Virus record (IMG/VR): IMGVR_UViG_3300041407_000094
Span: 1-64,000 of that record
Direction: 5' to 3' (one strand)
DNA length: 64,000 nt
Source of the DNA: a virus
The translations under genes and the position numbers were made by a program. Below the pieces are notes generated by a model. It was given only the letters and a program-made list of their open reading frames with translations, made no database searches and was not told where the DNA came from. Below, piece after piece: positions 2,927-63,109 of the stretch (position 1 is the stretch's first letter; every line of letters starts with the position of its first letter).

Positions 2927-4614
2927 TTAAGCTCCTGCATTAAGGAAGGGGTTAGATTGAGTTAGGTTTGCGGATAGTAGACCGGATGAGAAGTTTGGAA
3001 TGATTTGTCTTTGTGCTAAAGTTATGAAACTATCAGCTACGGCATCAACTTGGTCATCCTTCCGGGCACGGGAGCCGTCAAAAGCCTCACATTCAGAGAA
3101 GAAAGTATCATTCCACTCCCCGTGAACATATCGAACTAAGCCCGCTTCAGATGCTGATGCAAACGGCATAAATCTCAAGACTTTGGATTTATTTGTTGCC
3201 CTCATCCGGGCATAAAGACCTTCACTTAGGAATTCTTTAATCATCATTTGTCCAGCAGCTTTCCCAGCTTGGCCGGGCTCCTGCGGGATTATAATCTGAG
3301 TACCTTCAGGATCTTCTTTAGCAACTTCAATCATTCGTTGTATAACTTCGCCAAATCTGGCACGAAATCTAACAACGTCCATAATGATATATAAACCAGA
3401 CTTTGTTTTTCCTAGAAGGACTCCGGCTGTCCAGTCTGGGTTAGGAAGTGCTTCTGATGGCAATGAGCCAGCAATATCCCAAGCCCTGCAATATTGAACT
3501 ATATCAAGATCAAAAGGATTAACAGGTTCGCCCATCCAGTCTAATTTCCAAAAACCGCTGGAGTCCTCGCGGATGTCCCAATTCCCAAAAAGGTCGCGTT
3601 CTTTTTTTACACGTTTGAGACCTTGAAGGTTTGCAAGATATCCGGGGTTAGCTTTAATAAGTGGCGGATTGTCGTAGATCGTGGCTGAAATAAACTGTAG
3701 AGAAAGTGGAAGTACATCTTTACCGTAAGTCTCAAGAAGTTCTTCTCTGCTATCGCCCCAAATCATTTCATTGTTTTGACGGATAAACCAACGAACTTTA
3801 CCATCTCGTTCTGGATTAGGACGACCGGCGTTCTCTTCCCCTTTAGGGATGATCCACCAATCAATCCAACGACGTAAAAATGAGTCAGGAGAGGGGTTAC
3901 AAGTTAGAAATAAGTTAGGTTTCATCTTCGCTTTAGTACGAAGTCGAGACAATACAACTAGTGTGTGGTCCTCAGAAATCTGAGTGGCCTCATCTAGCAT
4001 TGCCCCAGAAATTTGTAACCCACGATATTTCTCTGCATCGTCATCTGTATCAAGGTGAGACATAGAAATCTCAGCGCCCGATGCAAATGTGAACTTCATT
4101 TCTTTTACGTTAACTTTTACTTTAGGGTCAAATGCCCTATATAGTTGGCGAGCCTCATCAAAGAGGCCACCAGATTTAGTCAGGGTATTTGAATTCTTTC
4201 GGATGATGAAACCGCGATATTGAGGATCATGCACCCAGCGGAGATGGCGAAGCAAGCCACAATAAGACTTACCTCCTCCCATAGCCTTTCTGTTATAAAG
4301 CTCGCTAAGCCTTTCTTAAGTTTCCCTAAGTGTCGGACCAACTCTTAATTCTAAGAATTCTCTCTGTTTCGGAATCGCTTGATCCCTACTCTACTCACTT
4401 CCACATTACTGTGTGTTTTCGATGGCCTCTACGCACTGTCTTTAAACATTGGCACGGGATTGGCATAGACCTAAGTCCTTAGCTTTCCCCGTTTAAGAGA
4501 GTTTTAAATGGAGGCGCTAAGTTCACCACCATATACAATTATGTCACTATCAGCCGACAAAAACCAACTTTGTTTCAAACTTGCCGGTGAGAATGAATAC
4601 TCAAAATCTGTCAT
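2927..4614 (-). CDS. terL: Terminase large subunit, split by group I intron
   Basis: The product is about 482 aa after removing an intron at 4286-4524. Exon 1 (4614-4525) encodes 30 aa ending SDIIVYGG, and exon 2 (4285-2927) begins AMGGGKSYCG. Joined, they restore the canonical Walker A YGGAMGGGKS, which neither exon has alone. Exon 2 also carries the Walker B region GAMLDEATQ, the coupling motif LTCNPS, and a RuvC-like nuclease domain (CRAWDIAG, IIIPQEPGQAG, DDQVDAVADSF). The enzyme packages genomic DNA through the portal using ATP and cuts concatemers. Without splicing, translation from exon 1 stops six codons into the intron (GGELSASI). An ATG at 4282 would give an N-truncated product lacking the upstream beta strand. 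The exon 1 ATG overlaps the stop of the upstream HNH gene (ATGA). Confidence 0.93.
4286..4524 (-). ncRNA. Group I intron (IA2-like) inside terL
   Basis: The 239-nt insertion interrupts the Walker A codons of terL. The 5' splice site follows a U (GGUGGU|GAAC). That U can wobble with G in an internal guide (GCCUCCAU) that pairs with exon AUGGUGGU to form P1. The core contains AAACGGGGAA and AAUCCCGUGCCAAUG (P3-P5 region, 4494 to 4447) and AGUAGGGAUCAAGCGAUUC followed by CGAAAC (P7 region, 4390 to 4366). These closely resemble the T4 td/nrdB intron cores as I remember them. The intron ends in G (AGAAAG|GCUAUG), as required for group I omega-G. It has no internal ORF. Confidence 0.9.
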
Positions 4615-5192
4615 CTTGAAATTTCTTTCCCATGATTTTCAGAATACCCGTACTCTACTTCCCATGCTTTTCGAGCATTAGCAGCGTCTTCCAACTCTTT
4701 AAAGATACCTAGATAATGCCTAACACGCTTTCCGTCAATTATTTCTTGACCCTCAGCTTGCCATTTACCTGTTTTCTTGTGGAAAGACACACCTACAACC
4801 CCGGAAGAGTTATTTGTATATTTAGCACGGTTTCTGTGGTTTAATTTATCAATACTAAGTTGTAAATTAGATATTGCATTATTTTGAGTGTTCAAATCAA
4901 TATGGTCAATATCCTCAGAAGGCCACTCACCATTTACATATAGCCAAGCAAGTCTGTGAGCCTTATACAACTTTCCACCCAACCCAATTACAACGTAAGG
5001 GGATGGATTCCTTTTTGTTGCTGGACTCAAATAACCAGCTTCAAGTGTAGGACTTATATTACTGAAGAATCCGTTTTTACCTCTCCAATCTTTGAAGTGG
5101 TAATCTGGTCTATCCAACTTCCAAGTAAACTTTCCAGTTTCTGGATTGTAGTCTATAGCTTCTTTTAGGTAATCTTGCGTAATTTCATTCAT
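4611..5192 (-). CDS. HNH homing endonuclease with AP2-like domain
   Basis: The 193-aa protein has an HNH core at about residues 75-120 (AHRLAWLYVNGEWP, DIDHIDLNTQNNAISNL). A C-terminal AP2-like DNA-binding repeat follows at 125-180 (GVVGVSFHKKTGKWQAEG, LGIFKELEDAANARKAWE). Such enzymes make site-specific breaks that promote copying of their own gene into related phages. It is free-standing: its TGA overlaps the terL start, and it is not inside the neighbouring intron. It may serve that intron in trans (inference). Confidence 0.85.
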   Translation of the reverse strand: MNEITQDYLKEAIDYNPETGKFTWKLDRPDYHFKDWRGKNGFFSNISPTLEAGYLSPATKRNPSPYVVIGLGGKLYKAHRLAWLYVNGEWPSEDIDHIDLNTQNNAISNLQLSIDKLNHRNRAKYTNNSSGVVGVSFHKKTGKWQAEGQEIIDGKRVRHYLGIFKELEDAANARKAWEVEYGYSENHGKEISR

Positions 5193-9304: not shown

Positions 9305-9525
9305 CTTTCTAAATAATCCTGACAAGATCACTTGCATTATAACTAAGGAGTTACAAGATTATTTAGAAAGCTCACTGAATGCATGAGGAGTGCATACACC
9401 AATGAGCGAAGACCATCTCGCAGGAGAGAGGGACGAGCGGTCTTAAGTTGCTGAAGGAAGAGGAGAGAAAAACTTCAGCAGGAGAAGATAAGACTCATGT
9501 AGAATTTAGTTCTTATTGTCTTATC
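9305..9525 (+). ncRNA. Candidate multi-hairpin RNA with GGA loops
   Basis: Five successive inverted repeats fill a 380-nt non-coding gap. H1 is a 14-bp perfect stem (9305-9318/9357-9370) whose loop holds AAGGAG. H2 is ATGCA/TGCAT (9379-9395) with loop TGAGGAG. H3 is AAGACC..CTCG/CGAG.GGTCTT (9409-9444) with CAGGAGAGAGGGA in its loop. H4 is TGCTGAAG/CTTCAGCA (9449-9480) with GAGGAG in its loop. An AGGAG linker follows, then H5 GATAAGAC/GTCTTATC (9487-9525). GGA in hairpin loops is the hallmark of CsrB/RsmY/RsmZ RNAs that titrate CsrA/RsmA. Strand of expression is not proven: minus-strand transcripts would instead show CUCCU loops. No strong promoter is visible; TATAAT boxes lie at 9272-9298. 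Confidence 0.5.
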
Positions 9526-9581
9526 GGGTGAAACTTAGAATTAATGATGTCTTTCCATCAGTCAAGCTATCATCACTAGAT

Positions 9582-9646
9582 GACTAGGTGGGAATCGCAC
9601 CCACATGTACCAACTCTCAGCTACCGAGCAGAATTGAACTGCATGC
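9582..9646 (-). pseudogene. tRNA debris next to tRNA-Asn
   Basis: Two T-arm-like hairpins without matching acceptor or anticodon arms lie directly 3' of tRNA-Asn. One is GTGGG-TGCGATT-CCCAC (9604-9588) and the other GCAG-TTCAATT-CTGC (9642-9628). A GTAGCTGAGAGTTGGTA stretch between them resembles a D-arm. They look like remnants of former tRNA genes in a decayed cluster. Confidence 0.4.
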
Positions 9647-9647
9647 T

Positions 9648-9723
9648 TGGCTGGCGATCCTGAATTCGAATCAGGGACAACTTGATTAACAGTCAAGCGC
9701 TCTACCAACTGAGCTAATCGCCA
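9648..9723 (-). tRNA. tRNA-Asn (GTT)
   Basis: The 76-nt gene folds as a full cloverleaf. The acceptor TGGCGAT pairs with ATCGCCA. The D-arm reads TAGCTCAGTTGGTAGAGC. The anticodon stem CTTGA/TCAAG encloses the loop CTGTTAA, whose anticodon is GTT. The T-arm has loop TTCGAAT. The 3' GCCA including CCA is encoded. It supports translation of AAC/AAT codons, which are common in this AT-leaning genome. Confidence 0.95.
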
Positions 9724-9800
9724 ATAATCTGTATAGGTACTAACAAAAGTAGTAGCTATACAACATTGTAACATTATTACATTCTATTTGCAACCACTTT

Positions 9801-9992
9801 CTATTCAGAATATGCCTCTGGAACATAGAAAGGGTCACACTGATCTTCAAATGTATAAGTGCGTGGTTCGAATTGATCAATATTATAAACTACGTTTAAG
9901 CAGTTAGCACAAAAATCTTCTTCAAGACCGTTCTCTTGTTTCATTTTAAAGTTCCTCCACGAAAGAGGCACATTGCAGCAACGACACCTCAT
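9801..9992 (-). CDS. Small zinc-ribbon-like protein
   Basis: The 63-aa protein has two CxxC pairs (CRCCNVP near residue 3 and CANCLN near 28), consistent with one zinc site, and an acidic aromatic C-terminus. Many phages carry similar short four-cysteine proteins of unknown role. A promoter lies at 10024-10052. Confidence 0.7.
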   Translation of the reverse strand: MRCRCCNVPLSWRNFKMKQENGLEEDFCANCLNVVYNIDQFEPRTYTFEDQCDPFYVPEAYSE

Positions 9993-10070: not shown

Positions 10071-10331
10071 TTAATCTTCTATTTGTAAAACACCGGAATG
10101 CACATATTTGATAATTCCATTATTCTCCTCCCAGTATCGAATATAGTCTAGAATGCCTGTCTTACGTTCCGTGTCTTTCAATGGAATCCCGCACATGCAA
10201 GAACCTTTTACAAAATATATGTAATGACTTAAGAAATCACTATAGTCAGGGACAAAGCCTTCATAGAATAATTGTTCCGCTTCCTTAAAGCCGTACCACC
10301 AAGTGTTTACAGTTTTATGCTGCTTGCTCAT
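10071..10331 (-). CDS. 86-aa protein, unknown
   Basis: Aromatic-rich protein (WWYGFKEAEQLFYEGF) with a CMCG motif mid-sequence. Its ATG overlaps the stop of the polymerase-like gene (ATGA), so the two are translationally coupled. Function not recognised. Confidence 0.7.
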   Translation of the reverse strand: MSKQHKTVNTWWYGFKEAEQLFYEGFVPDYSDFLSHYIYFVKGSCMCGIPLKDTERKTGILDYIRYWEENNGIIKYVHSGVLQIED

Positions 10332-11647
10332 ACGCTCAATTTCTCCTCAATCGAAATACCATCTTCTTTCCAATTCAAACTGATTGGAACTAGATAATCT
10401 ACACCGAACATTTTACGAAAGCAATCACCCATAGTCTTTGATAGCAAGTCAGCATTCTTAGTCTGAACCAAAAATGAGTCGTGTACTGGCAAGCATGGGA
10501 TATTCTTTTCAATCATTACTTCTAGAATATCATTAGCCAAATGACTATCAGCGTTCTGTAAAATACGTCCCATGCTATCTGGGCAACAGAAGAAATCACC
10601 AAACTGTGGGTATTTATCATAGATAAGCAACATCACGGCTTTTGCACCGCCAAGGGAATACTTCTTTTTGTCTTCATCCTTAAGCAGATTAATCTCTTTA
10701 CGAATAGCACCCTCTGCATCGTCATCGTTATAGCAGTTGAACATGATATTTACTGCAAGCTTTACAATACGACGATCTACTGTGTTTGTTTCATCTTCAA
10801 GAATACCTGAGTAAACATCTAGTGGTAGGTATTCAACATCAATGTCTTTCAAAGCTGCTGCTACACGAAAATGAAGATTACAGAAATCAATCTCACAAAC
10901 TTCTTGACCTTCAATCTTAATATCAAGCCGTGCATCAGTGTCACGATTCTTAATTGCCAATACATCGGCCTTATAGAACCTACCACCATAAGCAAACGAC
11001 TCGTTGAAGATGCGACAGTAGAAGTTTGTTAGGGTCTTACCATTTCCATCCTCAATACGGAATGATTCATTCATGTGGTTGAGCTTACGAACAACCTCTT
11101 CCATCTTCTTAATGTCTTGCGTATTACGATAAGGGATTGAATTCTTGTCTTCATCTCGCAATTCAATAACCTTCACTGTGTCTTCATATGCTTTCATAGT
11201 TTCCTCAATCAATTCTTCCGTGTGCCAGACTTCAATGAACTTCTGGGTTGGAGTGATGTAGCTGACTTCTCTCTTCTCTTTAATCTTATGTGGCTTACCC
11301 TTAACATTAACCACATATCCATCGTGTACTAGATACTCAATACAACGAATAACCTTACGAGATGTAATATCTTTCTTACTACTTGTCTTTGTTCCTCCTG
11401 TATCTCTACTGTACACAAGCTTGCATTGTTTCTTCAGGCAAGCAATGAGGTTAGTGACAACCACACCTAGTGTAGTGATATCCTTATACCCATACACCCT
11501 AATAGCATTACTTACCTCTCTACTAACCTTAATATCATATGTTAGTAGCTTAGTATTCAAGACTACCTCTCCCATCCTCCTCCATACCTCCCTACTATCA
11601 TATAACGCAATTTTAGAGACAAAATGCTCTGTAGGCCACAGCCACAA
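10328..11647 (-). CDS. Winged-helix/single-subunit polymerase-like palm protein A
   Basis: This protein of up to 439 aa has an N-terminal winged-helix-like segment (about 90-125, ITSRKVIRCIEYLVHDGYVV). Its C-terminal half shows the signature order of the T7 RNAP/PolA palm superfamily. A GGRFY block (cf. T7 RNAP GRVY) comes near 215. Motif A is EIDFCNLHFRVAAAL near 255. A motif B-like RRIVKLAVNIMFN comes near 290. Motif C is PVHDSF near 395. It is about half the length of T7 RNAP. It is transcribed from the strong divergent promoter at 11717-11745. The listed start is TTG without a ribosome binding site; an ATG at 11575 behind GGAGG is a good alternative (415 aa). It could be an RNA polymerase, a primase-like enzyme or an inactive regulator. 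A paralogue lies at 43038-44414. Confidence 0.7.
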   Translation of the reverse strand: MWLWPTEHFVSKIALYDSREVWRRMGEVVLNTKLLTYDIKVSREVSNAIRVYGYKDITTLGVVVTNLIACLKKQCKLVYSRDTGGTKTSSKKDITSRKVIRCIEYLVHDGYVVNVKGKPHKIKEKREVSYITPTQKFIEVWHTEELIEETMKAYEDTVKVIELRDEDKNSIPYRNTQDIKKMEEVVRKLNHMNESFRIEDGNGKTLTNFYCRIFNESFAYGGRFYKADVLAIKNRDTDARLDIKIEGQEVCEIDFCNLHFRVAAALKDIDVEYLPLDVYSGILEDETNTVDRRIVKLAVNIMFNCYNDDDAEGAIRKEINLLKDEDKKKYSLGGAKAVMLLIYDKYPQFGDFFCCPDSMGRILQNADSHLANDILEVMIEKNIPCLPVHDSFLVQTKNADLLSKTMGDCFRKMFGVDYLVPISLNWKEDGISIEEKLSV

Positions 11648-11805: not shown

Positions 11806-11961
11806 ATGCCCATCATCCACCTGCACACCTACCGTCTCCTGAAACAAATCCTTGAACATGCAGATAAGGTTGTGATAGTGTCGGTGAACAGAGAGTATGG
11901 GGAGCAAATGACATACACGTATGTGAAACGTAAACAAACTGAGAAGGGAGAGAAGAGATGA
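11806..11961 (+). CDS. 51-aa protein, unknown
   Basis: First gene of the rightward operon, with ATAGGAGAAG before ATG. The peptide is basic at its end (KRKQTEKGEKR). Its TGA overlaps the next ATG. Function not recognised. Confidence 0.7.
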   Translation: MPIIHLHTYRLLKQILEHADKVVIVSVNREYGEQMTYTYVKRKQTEKGEKR

Positions 11962-15935: not shown

Positions 15936-16667
15936 ATGAAAGCTATTAATTTAACGGGGATGAAATATAATAGACTTCTTGTAGAAAGTTTCGCGGGTTC
16001 TCGTAAGACCGAAGGTGCTGGTCAGTCTATACGAACTTGGAATTGTTTGTGTGACTGCGGTAATAGGATTGTTGTAGATGGGCATGCCTTGAAGTGTGAC
16101 AATACGATGAGTTGTGGATGTTATAAACTTGAAGTCACAACAACACATGGTATGTGGAAGGATCGATTTTATCAAATATGGGGAGATATGAAAGTTCGCT
16201 GTGATTGTGAAACTAATCAGTCTTACTACAGATATGGAGGTCGTGGTATTAGCTATCAAGAATCTTGGGTATCGTTTGAAGCTTTTAAAGAAGACATGTA
16301 TTCCAGCTATGAAGATCACCTAACTCTAGAGAGGATTGACGTAAACGGTAATTACTCCAAAGAAAATTGCTGCTGGGCCACTAAAGCCGAACAAGCAAGG
16401 AATAGAGGTATGGATACACGTAATAAAACAGGAGTAACTGGTATTAGAACTTGGATTGATAAAGATACTCAGGTTCTATATTATGTAGCAGAGGCTCAAG
16501 GGTTAGATGGTAAAAGGGTGACTAAACACTTTTCAACTGTAAAGTATGGCGAAGAAGGGGCATTTAATTTGGCCGTCGCTAAACGAAAAGAGTTTATGAA
16601 TGTACTAAGTGAAAATGGAATTGAGTACGGCATTAATCACGGTATCCAAAAAGAGGAATTTGTATGA
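15936..16667 (+). CDS. HNH homing endonuclease with AP2-like tail
   Basis: The 243-aa protein has a cysteine-bearing N-terminus (CLCDCGNRIVVDGHAL, MSCGCYK). An HNH-type core follows (ERIDVNGNYSKENCCWATK, near residues 130-150), then a C-terminal AP2-like repeat (GVTGIRTW to AFNLAVAKRKEF). It lies between phoH and a ClpP-like gene, consistent with insertion beside conserved genes by homing. AAGGAG precedes ATG, and the stop overlaps the next start. Confidence 0.85.
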   Translation: MKAINLTGMKYNRLLVESFAGSRKTEGAGQSIRTWNCLCDCGNRIVVDGHALKCDNTMSCGCYKLEVTTTHGMWKDRFYQIWGDMKVRCDCETNQSYYRYGGRGISYQESWVSFEAFKEDMYSSYEDHLTLERIDVNGNYSKENCCWATKAEQARNRGMDTRNKTGVTGIRTWIDKDTQVLYYVAEAQGLDGKRVTKHFSTVKYGEEGAFNLAVAKRKEFMNVLSENGIEYGINHGIQKEEFV

Positions 16668-18601: not shown

Positions 18602-18735
18602 GTTATACAGAAGTTGAATTGGAAGGTTTGGAAAGTTCACTTGAACATTGGATTCTGAGTGATGAGCAAGATATGCGTGAAACTTTTGGTGACGACCTTG
18701 TGTTTGCTGTGAAGGAGGCTCTAGTAGATGATTAG
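18598..18735 (+). CDS. 45-aa acidic peptide
   Basis: Acidic helical peptide (MSYTEVELEGLESSLEHWIL) in the coupled chain. It overlaps the start of the following homing endonuclease by 8 nt and provides its ribosome binding site (GAAGGAGG). Confidence 0.6.
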   Translation: MSYTEVELEGLESSLEHWILSDEQDMRETFGDDLVFAVKEALVDD

Positions 18736-19360
18736 GGAGAAGCATTACGGAATAGGGATTAATGATGCTGATTGGCCATTATATACTTATGAAATAGTGG
18801 GGAATAAAAAGAAAAGAATTGGGATTTGCCCGTTTTATATGCGATGGGTTACAGTTTTAAGTAGATGCTACTCACCAAAGGAGTTAAAAAGGAATCCATC
18901 ATATCTTGGCTGTGGTGTTTGCGACGAGTGGAGATACCTTTCAAATTTCAGGTCTTGGATGGAAACTCAGGATTGGGAAGGTAATCAATTAGATAAAGAC
19001 TTGCTTGTCAGGGGTAATAAAACTTATAGCCCTGAAACTTGTGTATTTGTATCACAAGACGTTAATAAATTTTTAACTGATCGTGCTAATGACAGAGGGG
19101 CTTTTCCGATTGGTGTTTATTTTGAAAAAGATTCTGGTAAATATAAAGCTCAAGGAAGCGGTGGTGTAGGGAAGCGTATAAATTTAGGCCGTTTTGGTAC
19201 TCCAGAAGAAGCTCATAAAGCATGGCTAACCTTTAAATTAGAACAAGCTTACGTGTTAGCCGAACGACAATCTGATGAGAGGGTCGCCAAGGCTTTGATT
19301 GATCGCTACGAAAATTATGTGATGGCTTTCTCAATTACTGAGGATACTGCAAATGACTGA
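18728..19360 (+). CDS. HNH/AP2-like putative homing endonuclease (subfamily 1)
   Basis: This is a 210-aa member of a family found three times here (also 26227 and 62447). Shared blocks are YGIGINDADWP at the N-terminus, CPFYMRWVTVLSRCYS, then LDKDLLVRGNKTYSPETCVF. An AP2-like strand block follows (PIGVYFEKDSGKYKAQG, LGRFGTPEEAHKAWL). In related phage proteins the DKD...N...SPETC segment replaces a classical HNH. It sits among tiny genes, so insertion may have split an operon. Nuclease activity is inferred. Confidence 0.75.
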   Translation: MIREKHYGIGINDADWPLYTYEIVGNKKKRIGICPFYMRWVTVLSRCYSPKELKRNPSYLGCGVCDEWRYLSNFRSWMETQDWEGNQLDKDLLVRGNKTYSPETCVFVSQDVNKFLTDRANDRGAFPIGVYFEKDSGKYKAQGSGGVGKRINLGRFGTPEEAHKAWLTFKLEQAYVLAERQSDERVAKALIDRYENYVMAFSITEDTAND

Positions 19361-26167: not shown

Positions 26168-26226
26168 TTTATAATATCCTCACATTTCTTAATTGATTTG
26201 TGGGGTGCTTTTATTTTGGAGGGGTT

Positions 26227-26832
26227 ATGGCATATAGGATTATACAAGGTGTAGGCATTAATGATGCCGGCTATGTAGTTAATAAGACGGACAGTCTAGG
26301 TAGGAGGGTTAGGTGTCCATTCTATGTTAAGTGGGCAGCGATGCTAGAACGATGCTACTCTGAGTCTTTTCATAAAACCAATCCAAGCTACGTAGGGTGT
26401 TCTGTGCATCCCAACTGGCACAGGTTCAGTAACTTCAAAGCTTGGATGGAACAGCAAGATTGGGAAGGGAAACACTTGGACAAAGATCTACTAATTATTA
26501 ACAATAGAATATATTCCCCTGAAACTTGCGTTTTTGTTAGTGGTGCGGTTAATAACTTTACTCTTGATGGTGGCAACCAGAAAAGTGGACTACCGATGGG
26601 AGTATCACTAGACAAGAGCTATGTTCCGTTGATGTACAAGGCACAGTGCAGGAGTGTTATAAGTGGGAAGAATGAGACTGTGGGCCGTTCACCAAACCCA
26701 GATATTGCACACAAAGCATGGTTAGCAGCTAAGCTAGAACAAGCTTACATCCTTGCAGAACAACAAACAGATAAGCGTGTAGCTGAAGCTTTGATTGATA
26801 GGTATGAAAATTATAAGGAGTATTTTGGTTGA
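26227..26832 (+). CDS. HNH/AP2-like putative homing endonuclease (subfamily 1)
   Basis: The 201-aa protein is a sibling of 18728 and 62447: GVGINDAGYVV, CPFYVKWAAMLERCYS, LDKDLLIINNRIYSPETCVF, and a C-terminal AP2-like block ending AHKAWLAAKLEQAYILAEQQ. ATG 26227 with GGAGGGG 3 nt upstream is chosen over a GTG nine codons earlier. It overlaps the helicase gene start, again placing an endonuclease beside a conserved gene. Confidence 0.75.
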   Translation: MAYRIIQGVGINDAGYVVNKTDSLGRRVRCPFYVKWAAMLERCYSESFHKTNPSYVGCSVHPNWHRFSNFKAWMEQQDWEGKHLDKDLLIINNRIYSPETCVFVSGAVNNFTLDGGNQKSGLPMGVSLDKSYVPLMYKAQCRSVISGKNETVGRSPNPDIAHKAWLAAKLEQAYILAEQQTDKRVAEALIDRYENYKEYFG

Positions 26833-33475: not shown

Positions 33476-34249
33476 TTAGTCATCTATTGAGATTTCCCAT
33501 GACAGTAAGGCTTGGTAAGCCCTTGGGTCAATTTGATCCTTATAGATTTCAGCCGCTTCCTTGATCACACGTTCTTTGTTCGTTTTGTAGAACATAAAAG
33601 CTTCGTTCACTGTCCAAAACCTTTTAAGTTTCTTTGACCCACTAAACTCATTGAATTGTGCTGTGAATTGGTTTCGGCCTTTACCTTTATGTACACCAAT
33701 AGGGTATTCACCCCGCCCACCAATTCGGGTAACAATTAGCATATTCAAATCGTGGGGTAGCATCACACAGGTGTCTGGCCCATAAACTTTATTACCTTTG
33801 AATAAAAGATCCTTGTCAATGTTCCACATGTTGTTGCCCCAACCTATGGCAGACTCTGACCAGTCTCCAAAATCTTGAAAGCACTCCCACTGTGAATCGA
33901 CAGAACAACCTCTGTATGTTGGTTTCTGAATTAGAAATTTCTCCGAATGACATCGATTATAAAGGCCCTTCCATGTAGAATACTCTAATGTGTGTACGCC
34001 AGAGGCTAGTGGTATGTGCTTACCAATGCCGACATAGCCCCTACCATATACGGACGGCTTGTATGGATTATAAAGCTTACCGTTACTAAGATTAGTCGTA
34101 TTAACAACCTGTTCATAGCCAACACCATCAAGCCACTTGACCAATACCCTTTGTTTGCCTAACCCTGACACTTCAAGTATCTGCACATCCACACCACAGT
34201 TTGTTGGATATACATCACCTATAAAATACTTTCTTACTGTCACAAACAT
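33476..34249 (-). CDS. HNH/AP2-like putative homing endonuclease (subfamily 2)
   Basis: The 257-aa protein shares a layout with 52715: an N-terminal beta domain, YGRGYVGIGK, TLEYSTWKGLYNRC, DKDLLFKGNKVYGPDTCVML, then a C-terminal AP2-like block (EYPIGVHKGKGRNQFTAQF, FWTVNEAFMFY). It is embedded in tiny genes on the minus strand. Nuclease function is inferred from family resemblance. Confidence 0.72.
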   Translation of the reverse strand: MFVTVRKYFIGDVYPTNCGVDVQILEVSGLGKQRVLVKWLDGVGYEQVVNTTNLSNGKLYNPYKPSVYGRGYVGIGKHIPLASGVHTLEYSTWKGLYNRCHSEKFLIQKPTYRGCSVDSQWECFQDFGDWSESAIGWGNNMWNIDKDLLFKGNKVYGPDTCVMLPHDLNMLIVTRIGGRGEYPIGVHKGKGRNQFTAQFNEFSGSKKLKRFWTVNEAFMFYKTNKERVIKEAAEIYKDQIDPRAYQALLSWEISIDD

Positions 34250-42856: not shown

Positions 42857-43041
42857 ACCACTAGCTCCAATTCATGTTCCATGAAAGGCCATTGTGCATA
42901 AAGATCTTCATCACTGCCGACGTAAAATGGATCTATGATGTAGATTAGATCTTCATTAATAGAACTGATTGTGTGTTCAGAACCTACAGTAAAAGCTGTG
43001 TATACAGCCTCAACTATTTTAACTTTATCACCAGTTTTCAT
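42853..43041 (-). CDS. 62-aa SH3-like protein
   Basis: MKTGDKVKIVEAVYTAFTVG and acidic strands. It is coupled by ATGA to the polymerase-like gene, as is a short gene downstream of the first copy. Function unknown. Confidence 0.65.
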   Translation of the reverse strand: MKTGDKVKIVEAVYTAFTVGSEHTISSINEDLIYIIDPFYVGSDEDLYAQWPFMEHELELVV

Positions 43042-44414
43042 TTTTGATCCACCTTTACAAATTCTTTGGAGCCGATAACATCATTCCATGCTTCGACCAT
43101 TGCTGAATGTAACAATTCACCTGCACTTGCTCGGCACTGAAAACTGTCATGCCAACACAGAACAACTTCACCAGACTGTAGCATCAAATCAATCACTCGT
43201 AAAGCAATTTCGCTATCAAGATTTTGTAACCAAATACCCTTATCTTGAAAGAAATCCTTAGAAATCAAATGGTTGTGTGCACAAACTACCATTAACACCT
43301 GTTTAGTATCAGGTTTAATCAGCCCAACATACTCACGATCTGCTATGTTTTTCTTACCGTCGGTGAACAATTCATGGGATAGACTAGACCATGCACGATC
43401 AAAACTATCACAATTCAACGCCCTCATAACAGCATGTTTCATAAAGGATCGCGCGGGATTATATTTCTTAATACCAAACCGAAGTTTGTGTTCTTCCACT
43501 GCTACATGGTCCACACGAAGGCATGATTCATCAGCACCATACGGGTCTACATCTTTTGAAACCAAATCAAGAATTTGAGGCTCTTTTTGAGACAAAATTT
43601 CTAGAAGAATTCTTGGGTGGTTTGCTGAATAGTCCCACTCCTGAACAGATTCACCCTCAATTGTGATGGCAGACAAGCGTAATTCTTGAGGAACAAGCTG
43701 AATACTTCCTCCGTGTGCAAACAACCGACCACCACTATTGAAGTCACCACTGAAACTACGATGGTATTCTAGCAAAGGGACCTCTTTACCATTAAATCGG
43801 ATGTCAACACTTGACAAACTCTCATTGTAACGAGCCATTTCCTGAGCCATCTTGTCAATCATGCCTGTTTTCTCTACTTCGATCATCTCTTTTGTCTTCC
43901 TATCTTTCAAAATAATAGGGTAATCCATAGCAACGCTAGGGACGTGTAATTCTAATTGTTTCTTGTCAAACAAGTCAACCAGTTTTTGATTGAATCGGAC
44001 AACACTCATATAAGAAAAGTCTTCATTTCGATAGTCATGACTGCCTTTGAGAACATAAATGTATTCATTTTCGCTCATATAACCAAGAACAGAATTAATT
44101 CCACGAGCACTAATACCACAATCGTTACCTGTCCAGTAGGCAGATTGTAGCTTTACAGAGAAACCCATGTAGTTGTCTCTTAACGATCTTGCTGTATTAG
44201 TGAAGAACCATTGTACTGCTTCAAACTTCTTGTACTTTAATTCTTTGTTCACTTGATCAACAAGATGGTTATATGCTTTGTTTGGTGATCTGTAAGGCTT
44301 ACCTTTAGCTGTAGTGATGAGAACAGAATATAACTCTCTACCAACTAAATCTCTTACCTTATATACTACATCTTTCTTCTCTTTCTCATCTATTATATTA
44401 CTAATCTCACTCAT
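43038..44414 (-). CDS. Winged-helix/single-subunit polymerase-like palm protein B
   Basis: The 458-aa protein is a paralogue of 10328-11647. The winged-helix-like segment is GISARGINSVLGYMSENEYI, about 113-132. A GGRLF block follows near 228. Motif A is EWDYSANHPRILLEIL near 262. A motif B-like RSFMKHAVMRALN comes near 323. Motif C is LCWHDSF near 424. The order and spacing match the PolA/T7 RNAP palm, and both aspartates expected to hold metal ions are present. It is shorter than known single-subunit RNAPs (about 800 aa). Promoter recognition, priming or a non-catalytic role are all possible. A TATTATAGT box lies 36 nt before the ATG, and GAAGGAGATAGGT precedes it. Confidence 0.72.
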   Translation of the reverse strand: MSEISNIIDEKEKKDVVYKVRDLVGRELYSVLITTAKGKPYRSPNKAYNHLVDQVNKELKYKKFEAVQWFFTNTARSLRDNYMGFSVKLQSAYWTGNDCGISARGINSVLGYMSENEYIYVLKGSHDYRNEDFSYMSVVRFNQKLVDLFDKKQLELHVPSVAMDYPIILKDRKTKEMIEVEKTGMIDKMAQEMARYNESLSSVDIRFNGKEVPLLEYHRSFSGDFNSGGRLFAHGGSIQLVPQELRLSAITIEGESVQEWDYSANHPRILLEILSQKEPQILDLVSKDVDPYGADESCLRVDHVAVEEHKLRFGIKKYNPARSFMKHAVMRALNCDSFDRAWSSLSHELFTDGKKNIADREYVGLIKPDTKQVLMVVCAHNHLISKDFFQDKGIWLQNLDSEIALRVIDLMLQSGEVVLCWHDSFQCRASAGELLHSAMVEAWNDVIGSKEFVKVDQK

Positions 44415-52684: not shown

Positions 52685-52714
52685 TAGATCTATTGAAAAT
52701 AATTGTGGACTCAT

Positions 52715-53458
52715 ATGAAGAAAGTAATCAAACCGTTAGACGAGGGTTCAATATACGAGACGATATACGGAGAGGGTTTCAAGGTTGTTTGGTATATAGG
52801 CAGGGATAAGATACTGATTGAATTCCTAGACGAAACAGCACACCTGCACTGGACATCAAAGTGCCAGATACTTAGAGGAGACTTTAGGAATCCTTATAGA
52901 AAAACAGTCTATGGTAGAGGATTCCTAGGTTTTGGTAAGTACAAAACTAAAGAGGGTAGGAAAGATACCTTAGAATATAAAACTTGGGCCGGTATATTTC
53001 GCAGATGTTATGAGCAGGACGATTGTGGTAATAATCTAGAGCCAACTTATCAAGGGTGTGAAGTTGATGAAAGATGGTATAATTTCCAAAACTTTGCATC
53101 TTGGTTCTGTAGTAGAAAACAATATGGAATGGGGTGGCACTTGGATAAGGATATTACTGTTTCGGGTAACAAGGTATATGGTCCAGATACTTGTACAATG
53201 TTACCTGTACAACTTAATGCCTTGATTGTTGGGGAAAGATTAAAGTCTAGAGAGTTACCTGTAGGAGTATACAAGGATCGTTATGGATATAAGGCGGGAA
53301 CTGGTAAAGTATATGCCGGATTTTATAGAAATGTAGAAGAAGCACACCAAGCGTATAAAGTTAGAAAAGGAGAGTACATAAGGGAGGTTGCTGAAGGTTT
53401 TAAAGAATTTCTTGATGCAGAAACGTTTGACAAACTAATGAACTTTGAAGTTAAATAA
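52715..53458 (+). CDS. HNH/AP2-like putative homing endonuclease (subfamily 2)
   Basis: The 247-aa protein is the closest relative here of 33476-34249: YGRGFLGFGKY, TLEYKTWAGIFRRC, PTYQGCEVDERWYNFQNF, DKDITVSGNKVYGPDTCTML, and a C-terminal ELPVGVYKDRYGYKAG repeat. It sits right after the polymerase gene, a common homing site. The ATG lacks a good ribosome binding site (TTG 52703 is an alternative), suggesting low expression. Confidence 0.72.
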   Translation: MKKVIKPLDEGSIYETIYGEGFKVVWYIGRDKILIEFLDETAHLHWTSKCQILRGDFRNPYRKTVYGRGFLGFGKYKTKEGRKDTLEYKTWAGIFRRCYEQDDCGNNLEPTYQGCEVDERWYNFQNFASWFCSRKQYGMGWHLDKDITVSGNKVYGPDTCTMLPVQLNALIVGERLKSRELPVGVYKDRYGYKAGTGKVYAGFYRNVEEAHQAYKVRKGEYIREVAEGFKEFLDAETFDKLMNFEVK

Positions 53459-62446: not shown

Positions 62447-63109
62447 GTGGGAAAGAAACTAGTTTATGGAGTAGGTATAAATGACTTAGGTTACCCTATA
62501 ACTAAGACAGAACAAGGTATTCGTGTATGGGAGTGTCCTTATTATAACAAGTGGATTGAGATGTTGAGGCGTGGATTCTCTGAAGCTGAGAAAGCAAGGC
62601 ATTCAACTTATAAAAATACAACCGTCTGTGATGAGTGGAGAACAGCAAGTGTGTTTAAAGCTTGGATGGAGCAACAAGACTGGAAAGGGTTGGACTTGGA
62701 TAAGGATATACTTTTAAAAGGTAATAATATTTATAGTCCAGAAACAACAGTATTTGTTCCATCCTATATCAACACCTTACTTGTAACGAGCAGCGCTATT
62801 AGAGGTAAGTGGCCTTTAGGAGTATCTTTTGTAAAACAGAATTTCTTAAAAGGTGTGAGTAAAGTATTTAGGGCATCTATTAAAGATAAGAGAAACCTTG
62901 AATGTATACAGAAGAATCTGGGACATTTTACAACACAAGATGAAGCTCATAGAACTTGGCAACAAGCTAAATATGAAGTATTCTTGCGGCGTCTAGATGA
63001 ATACTCAAAAGACCCTCAGTTCAATCAGAAAGCATATGATGCAATCAAGATTCGTGCAATTAATTTAAAACTAGACATAGCTCTAGGAAAAGAAACTTTT
63101 AATATCTAA
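62447..63109 (+). CDS. HNH/AP2-like putative homing endonuclease (subfamily 1)
   Basis: The 220-aa protein is a sibling of 18728 and 26227: YGVGINDLGYPI, CPYYNKWIEMLRRGFS, LDKDILLKGNNIYSPETTVF and a C-terminal AP2-like block (WPLGVSFVKQNFLKG, GHFTTQDEAHRTWQ). It starts at GTG behind AAGGAG. It is inserted between a small gene and the RNR gene. The Cys of SPETC is replaced by Thr, a difference from the siblings. Confidence 0.73.
   Translation: MGKKLVYGVGINDLGYPITKTEQGIRVWECPYYNKWIEMLRRGFSEAEKARHSTYKNTTVCDEWRTASVFKAWMEQQDWKGLDLDKDILLKGNNIYSPETTVFVPSYINTLLVTSSAIRGKWPLGVSFVKQNFLKGVSKVFRASIKDKRNLECIQKNLGHFTTQDEAHRTWQQAKYEVFLRRLDEYSKDPQFNQKAYDAIKIRAINLKLDIALGKETFNI

Follow-up and report, generated by a model that had tools for sequence, protein, structure and literature searches.

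CsrB, RsmY and RsmZ are multivalent RNAs in which one loop motif recurs along a chain of hairpins; the loops carry GGA and bind CsrA/RsmA. Phages were already known in the 1970s to make stable RNAs next to their tRNA genes (bands C and D of T4), and these have so far remained without a function. The NfeR1/alpha-r14 ('cuckoo') RNAs of alphaproteobacteria/rhizobia are built of three hairpins, and the same unpaired anti-Shine-Dalgarno motif recurs in each. Their motifs are redundant and ultraconserved and their stems highly diverged, and tests have shown that they silence mRNAs by pairing with the region where translation starts (PMC10746234). In Pseudomonas phage PAK_P3, two small RNAs from the tRNA locus, sRNA1 and sRNA2, are abundant late in infection (PMC4933390).

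We analyzed a 64,000-nucleotide stretch of DNA (the window) that is part of an 81,122-base virus record, and found on its minus strand an RNA element of about 229 nt, with its 5' end at 9534 and its 3' end at ~9306 (Table 1). Like the NfeR1/alpha-r14 RNAs, it is a chain of hairpins with repeated, unpaired loops of the anti-Shine-Dalgarno type and diverged stems. A sequence-only reading of 9305-9525 had described five consecutive plus-strand stems, four of them with AGGAG or AGGGA in the loop, and another AGGAG in a linker, and had proposed a CsrA/RsmA sponge with GGA loops. We could see the five stems, AGGAG in the loops of four of them and a further AGGAG in a linker, and the plus-strand fold of this range (-61 kcal/mol, z -3.5) exceeds chance. 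The element extends ~10 nt beyond that range, into the unpaired GUUUCACC at its 5' end.

Table 1. Positions in the window of the RNA element and of other features discussed in the text
Feature	Positions	Strand	Remarks
Whole RNA element	9306..9534	-	unpaired 5' tail and five hairpins; minus-strand fold z -8.2; model R1 match 9409-9534
Conserved unpaired 5' end	9527..9534	-	GUUUCACC; unpaired probability 0.98 in the window
Hairpin 1	9487..9525	-	stem of 8 bp with an internal loop and a small AGAA/UUCU helix; without a CU loop
Hairpin 2	9449..9480	-	loop UUUUUCUCUCCUCUUC
Hairpin 3	9409..9444	-	loop CCCUCUCUCCU; conserved bulge in stem
Hairpin 4	9370..9407	-	loop CACUCCU
Hairpin 5	9306..9369	-	two small sub-hairpins enclosed by a terminal stem of 16 bp
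tRNA-Asn (GTT)	9648..9723	-	upstream of the RNA, same orientation
Probable decayed tRNA	9565..9647	-	follows tRNA-Asn and precedes the RNA; T-arm-like GTGGGTGCGATTCCCAC, by eye; sub-threshold tRNA-like match only
Candidate sigma-70-type promoter TTGCAA-17-TACAAT	9765..9793	-	upstream of the tRNA; TG before second hexamer; consensus match only
Downstream gene, 137 aa	8856..9269	-	without Pfam or PHROG family; neighbor kept in many, not all, members
Terminase large subunit	2927..4282	-	same late (structural) strand as the RNA
Homing-endonuclease-like ORFs	4611-5192, 15936-16667, 18728-19360, 26200-26832, 33476-34249, 52703-53458, 62447-63109		by eye

Several observations place the conserved RNA on the minus strand. 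The minus-strand fold (-70.5 kcal/mol, z -8.2) was much better than that of the plus strand, and energy was lower on the strand with the CU loops in 19/20 related loci (mean z -7.1 vs -3.2). On the minus-strand reading there were 23 G-U pairs versus 12 A-C mismatches (p=0.09). The tRNA and the structural genes run in the same direction as the element, and the RNA starts at the base right after the tRNA CCA in four members (L002, L006, L054 and L061) and 9 nt past it in L018. The co-directional genes, the 5' end abutting the CCA, the better fold and the excess of G-U pairs agree, and the assignment of the strand is well supported. The purine (AGGAG) loops are the complementary strand of loops of the CUCUCCU type, and we rejected the plus-strand CsrA sponge as the main reading on this evidence. 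The idea that the region encodes a real multi-hairpin phage RNA of a regulatory type survives on the other strand, where the fold of the window and the relatives described below bear it out.

The element belongs to a family. Relatives were gathered by searching with the protein encoded downstream, with the terminase and with DNA patterns, and the loci (designated L plus a number) come from other uncultured viruses. The same element is present in 20 loci, the window counted. In 19 members, single-sequence folding recovered all five hairpins in an unchanged order; L037 diverges past hairpin 2. The GUUUCACC 5' end was found in 20/20 members, with at most 1-2 changes in each. We built a covariance model (R1) of hairpins 1-3 with only L003, L055, L012 and L041 as seeds, leaving the window out. 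R1 matched the window with 95.4 bits (E=1.4e-20), and it matched 15 further distinct members beyond the seeds and the window with E<=9e-6 (L076 scored the same as L061 and was treated as a duplicate).

Pairing has been kept while the stem sequences have changed. In the R1 alignment, which was fitted to the structure so that pair counts are inflated, 28 of the 29 base pairs had two-sided changes (8/8 of the outer pairs of hairpin 1 and 11/11 of the pairs of hairpin 3) and 93.6% of cells were paired. The covariation score was 0.845, compared to 0.21 in shuffles and 0.09-0.15 when the structure was slid. In addition, when the stem arms were read from the individual fold of each member, the two arms of one member paired much better with each other than with the partner arms of other members, in all five hairpins. 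A MAFFT alignment of all members analyzed with RNAalifold returned zero pairs; the stems differ too much to be aligned by sequence, and the four-seed covariance model was used instead. The check for folding and covariation in relatives that the sequence-only reading had suggested thus came out in favor of conserved stems, on the minus strand. The structure is well supported, and both it and one loop motif (see below) are under strong selection.

The family appears to be previously undescribed. No Rfam family except tRNA reached threshold at or near the element, and nothing similar was found even at E up to 10. A scan of six relatives against Rfam returned only tRNA and one group I intron. Among isolate phages there were no homologues by blastn, nor by covariance model in 11 isolates. 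One weak match, in Aeromonas phage 2L372D (E=0.03), was rejected; it is antisense within an annotated gene and without a like fold. A search covering part of the literature gave no description of a five-hairpin RNA family with GUUUCACC and CUCUCC. We suggest that the five-hairpin RNA is a strongly conserved family in a group of uncultured phages, known from sequence.

The best reading of the likeness to NfeR1/alpha-r14 is that the two are architecturally similar, on paper, but are separate families. The bacterial RNAs have three hairpins and the motif CCUCCUCCC, whereas the phage RNA has five hairpins, CUCUCCU, the GUUUCACC 5' end and a link to tRNA; CCUCCUCCC is not what its loops carry, and CCUCC occurs in them at the level of shuffles. 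We did not file it with NfeR1/alpha-r14 because of the different motif, the number of hairpins, the tRNA-linked origin and the lack of an Rfam match. PAK_P3 sRNA1 and sRNA2 are similar in being small RNAs at a tRNA locus upstream of the terminase, and the terminases of PAK_P3 and the window are 45% identical. We rejected them as homologues, as their folds and loops differ and there is no chain of CUCUCC loops; the PAK_P3 genome had no match to covariance models R1 or R2. Bands C and D of T4 are likewise stable phage RNAs encoded with tRNAs, and we compared them with the phage RNA by description only. The hairpin chain with a repeated loop motif is shared with CsrB/RsmY/RsmZ, but their loops have GGA and the inferred transcribed strand of the phage RNA has the complement, UCC.

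We found that the loops of three of the five hairpins (hairpins 2-4) are made of pyrimidines built around CUCUCCU. Purines accounted for only 11/263, 2/163 and 2/68 letters in the loops of hairpins 2, 3 and 4, respectively. CUCUCC was present in 15/19, 11/15 and 5/7 of the distinct loops of these hairpins, compared to 1.9, 1.8 and 0.5 expected from shuffles that preserve composition. That is, the order CUCUCC is 6-10 times more frequent than in shuffled loops, indicating that the order of the letters is selected, and the motif is well supported. In contrast, CCUCC, which is the core of the 16S anti-Shine-Dalgarno sequence, was not enriched over shuffled loops in hairpins 2-4. The linker between hairpins 1 and 2 also has UCUCC (CUCC from 9484). 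In the window, the CUCC cores of this first linker and of hairpins 2-4 had an unpaired probability of 0.99-1.00, whereas the CUCC in hairpin 5 is only about half unpaired. The enrichment of CUCUCC lends support to the other suggestion of the sequence-only reading, that CUCCU loops on the opposite strand could mask ribosome binding sites, as a predicted function.

The complement of the CUCUCC-type motif is GGAGAG, and GGAGA sites are unevenly distributed among the genes of these phages. In the window's genome, GGAGA was found within 20 nt of the gene start at 33/85 conserved early genes versus 0/25 late genes (p=4e-5), where the early and late classes rest on position and on homology to the structural block rather than on expression, and gene starts were picked by a simple rule that favors good ribosome sites. 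In nine RNA-bearing genomes the counts were 125/418 early versus 11/178 late (p=9e-4 per gene family), and in a separate analysis of whole early arcs of RNA-bearing phages they were 292/1026 versus 9/176. Isolates that lack the RNA showed the asymmetry too (163/780 early versus 5/77 late; p=0.001), indicating that it is a background property of the phage group. We therefore rejected it as proof of co-evolution with the RNA; the RNA could exploit such a background. Across the whole group, with or without the RNA, GGAGA occurs at about 5-9% of late genes and about 20-30% of early genes. The best predicted pairings between loops and start regions in the window's genome were with early genes (e.g., those with starts at 11958, 17504 and 39532). 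Pairing of the real loops with early start regions was modestly better than that of shuffled loops in most genomes; the difference was clear in a few and absent in others.

On balance, we lean toward a tRNA-linked phage RNA, made from the minus strand, that would act in trans as an anti-Shine-Dalgarno RNA and block the ribosome sites of early genes. The RNA would be freed from a tRNA precursor by tRNA 3' processing, and several of its CUCUCC loops would pair with Shine-Dalgarno sites of the AGGAGA type, so that ribosome binding is blocked. The main targets would be early phage genes and perhaps host mRNAs, and late structural genes would escape, as GGAGA sites are almost absent there. Early phage genes and host genes would thus probably be translated less. 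We infer the release by tRNA processing, the action in trans, the targets and the timing. A free RNA is suggested by the different genes that lie downstream in different members. In PAK_P3, the small RNAs from the tRNA locus are abundant late in infection, which supports expression from a locus of this type, and a precedent for such an architecture has been tested in NfeR1/alpha-r14. A fuller version, which we offer only tentatively and consider less likely than not, is a late switch in which a multivalent anti-Shine-Dalgarno RNA, processed from tRNA and with hairpins that evolve as cassettes, would shut off the translation of early phage and host genes with AGGAGA and spare the structural genes.

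The loops could instead bind protein. CU-rich loops might sequester a host protein that binds pyrimidines, such as Rho, whose sites are YC-rich, the ribosomal protein S1 or a cold-shock protein, and so relieve termination or change translation; the loops of hairpins 2-4 are nearly free of purines and fully exposed, and many binding sites per RNA are the usual design of a protein sponge. However, the letter order described above exceeds what composition gives and, to our knowledge, none of these proteins needs the order CUCUCC. We regard such a decoy as unlikely. Just as doubtful, or slightly more so, is a leader that acts in cis on the structural operon, through antitermination, the stability of the RNA or the translation of the gene that follows. 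The RNA does lie within that operon, in the direction of the structural genes, and a start codon follows 24-52 nt beyond it in most members. Against a leader, the gene that follows is of at least two unrelated kinds (the 137-aa family or a MILSG... gene), a tRNA-like stretch intervenes between the RNA and the next gene in L006 and L012, and repeated exposed CUCUCC loops would not be needed.

Two further explanations seem very improbable. A CsrA/RsmA sponge with GGA loops would have to come from the plus strand, where AGGAG is displayed in four loops and a linker, and antisense RNAs are annotated at the equivalent tRNA locus of PAK_P3; an antisense transcript of the plus strand alongside the minus-strand RNA is conceivable. 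Fold, G-U excess, 5' boundary and the direction of tRNAs and downstream genes all point to the minus strand, however, and the loops of that strand have UCUCC. We give even less weight to an element that acts in packaging or at the level of DNA (a pac-like site or a pRNA-like RNA). It would fit the proximity to the terminase gene and the single copy in each RNA-bearing record (model R2). In contrast, the stems diverge in sequence while pairing persists, which argues for an element that works as RNA rather than DNA; moreover, the position relative to the terminase gene differs among members, and relatives with a similar terminase but without the RNA exist.

The selection on structure and on the loop motif suggests that the RNA has a definite task that can be put to the test, namely to mask ribosome sites directly. 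If this is true, a phage could use RNA alone to shift translation from its early genes to its late ones. The idea is testable in a simple two-plasmid reporter, because every hairpin and every loop can be mutated on its own.

The nearest isolate by terminase large subunit is Pseudomonas phage UAVern (46% identical; PAK_P3 is about 45% identical), and a host search with the terminase across bacterial genomes and assemblies gave no match. Matches of the candidate promoter type (Table 1) were not above chance in number. A group I intron (Rfam RF00028, 71.5 bits) is present in L018 at 9744-9970 (+), just upstream of the match to the terminase large subunit. The window has two paralogues of PHROG 4756 in one genome, at 10328-11647 (-) and 43038-44414 (-), whose C-terminal 'PVHDSFLV'/'CWHDSFQ' look polymerase-like by eye. 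Seven ORFs look like homing endonucleases of the HNH/AP2 type, by eye from the translations.

Single hairpins seem to have been swapped as cassettes between members, because some members have hairpins in common while their remaining hairpins differ. The window and L067 have hairpin 1 in common at 96% and the other hairpins at 45-73%; the window and L006 have hairpin 5 in common at 90%. L018 and L020 are alike in hairpins 1-4 (90-100%) but not in hairpin 5 (62%), and L061 and L009 in hairpins 2-4 (93-95%) but not in hairpins 1 and 5 (70%). L002 and L003 have hairpin 4 in common at 96%.

Two-hairpin versions with loops of the UCUCC type were found in L021 (7940-8150), L022 (5060-5240) and L023 (6600-6800). 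Those in L021 and in L022/L023 are without the GUUUCACC 5' end and directly follow strong promoter-like TTGACA...TATA sequences. They may represent the same idea in a reduced or an independent form.

Hairpin 4 has two forms in the relatives, a simple one and a longer GACCUUG...CAGGGUC form with the loop CCUCUCCU. The longer form (GACCUUGAUAGCGUG...GCUUAGCACAGGGUC) was found in L002, L003, L011, L041, L055 and L067. Its sequence is near-invariant in several members, in contrast to the other stems, which suggests a further tertiary or protein-binding role for this hairpin.
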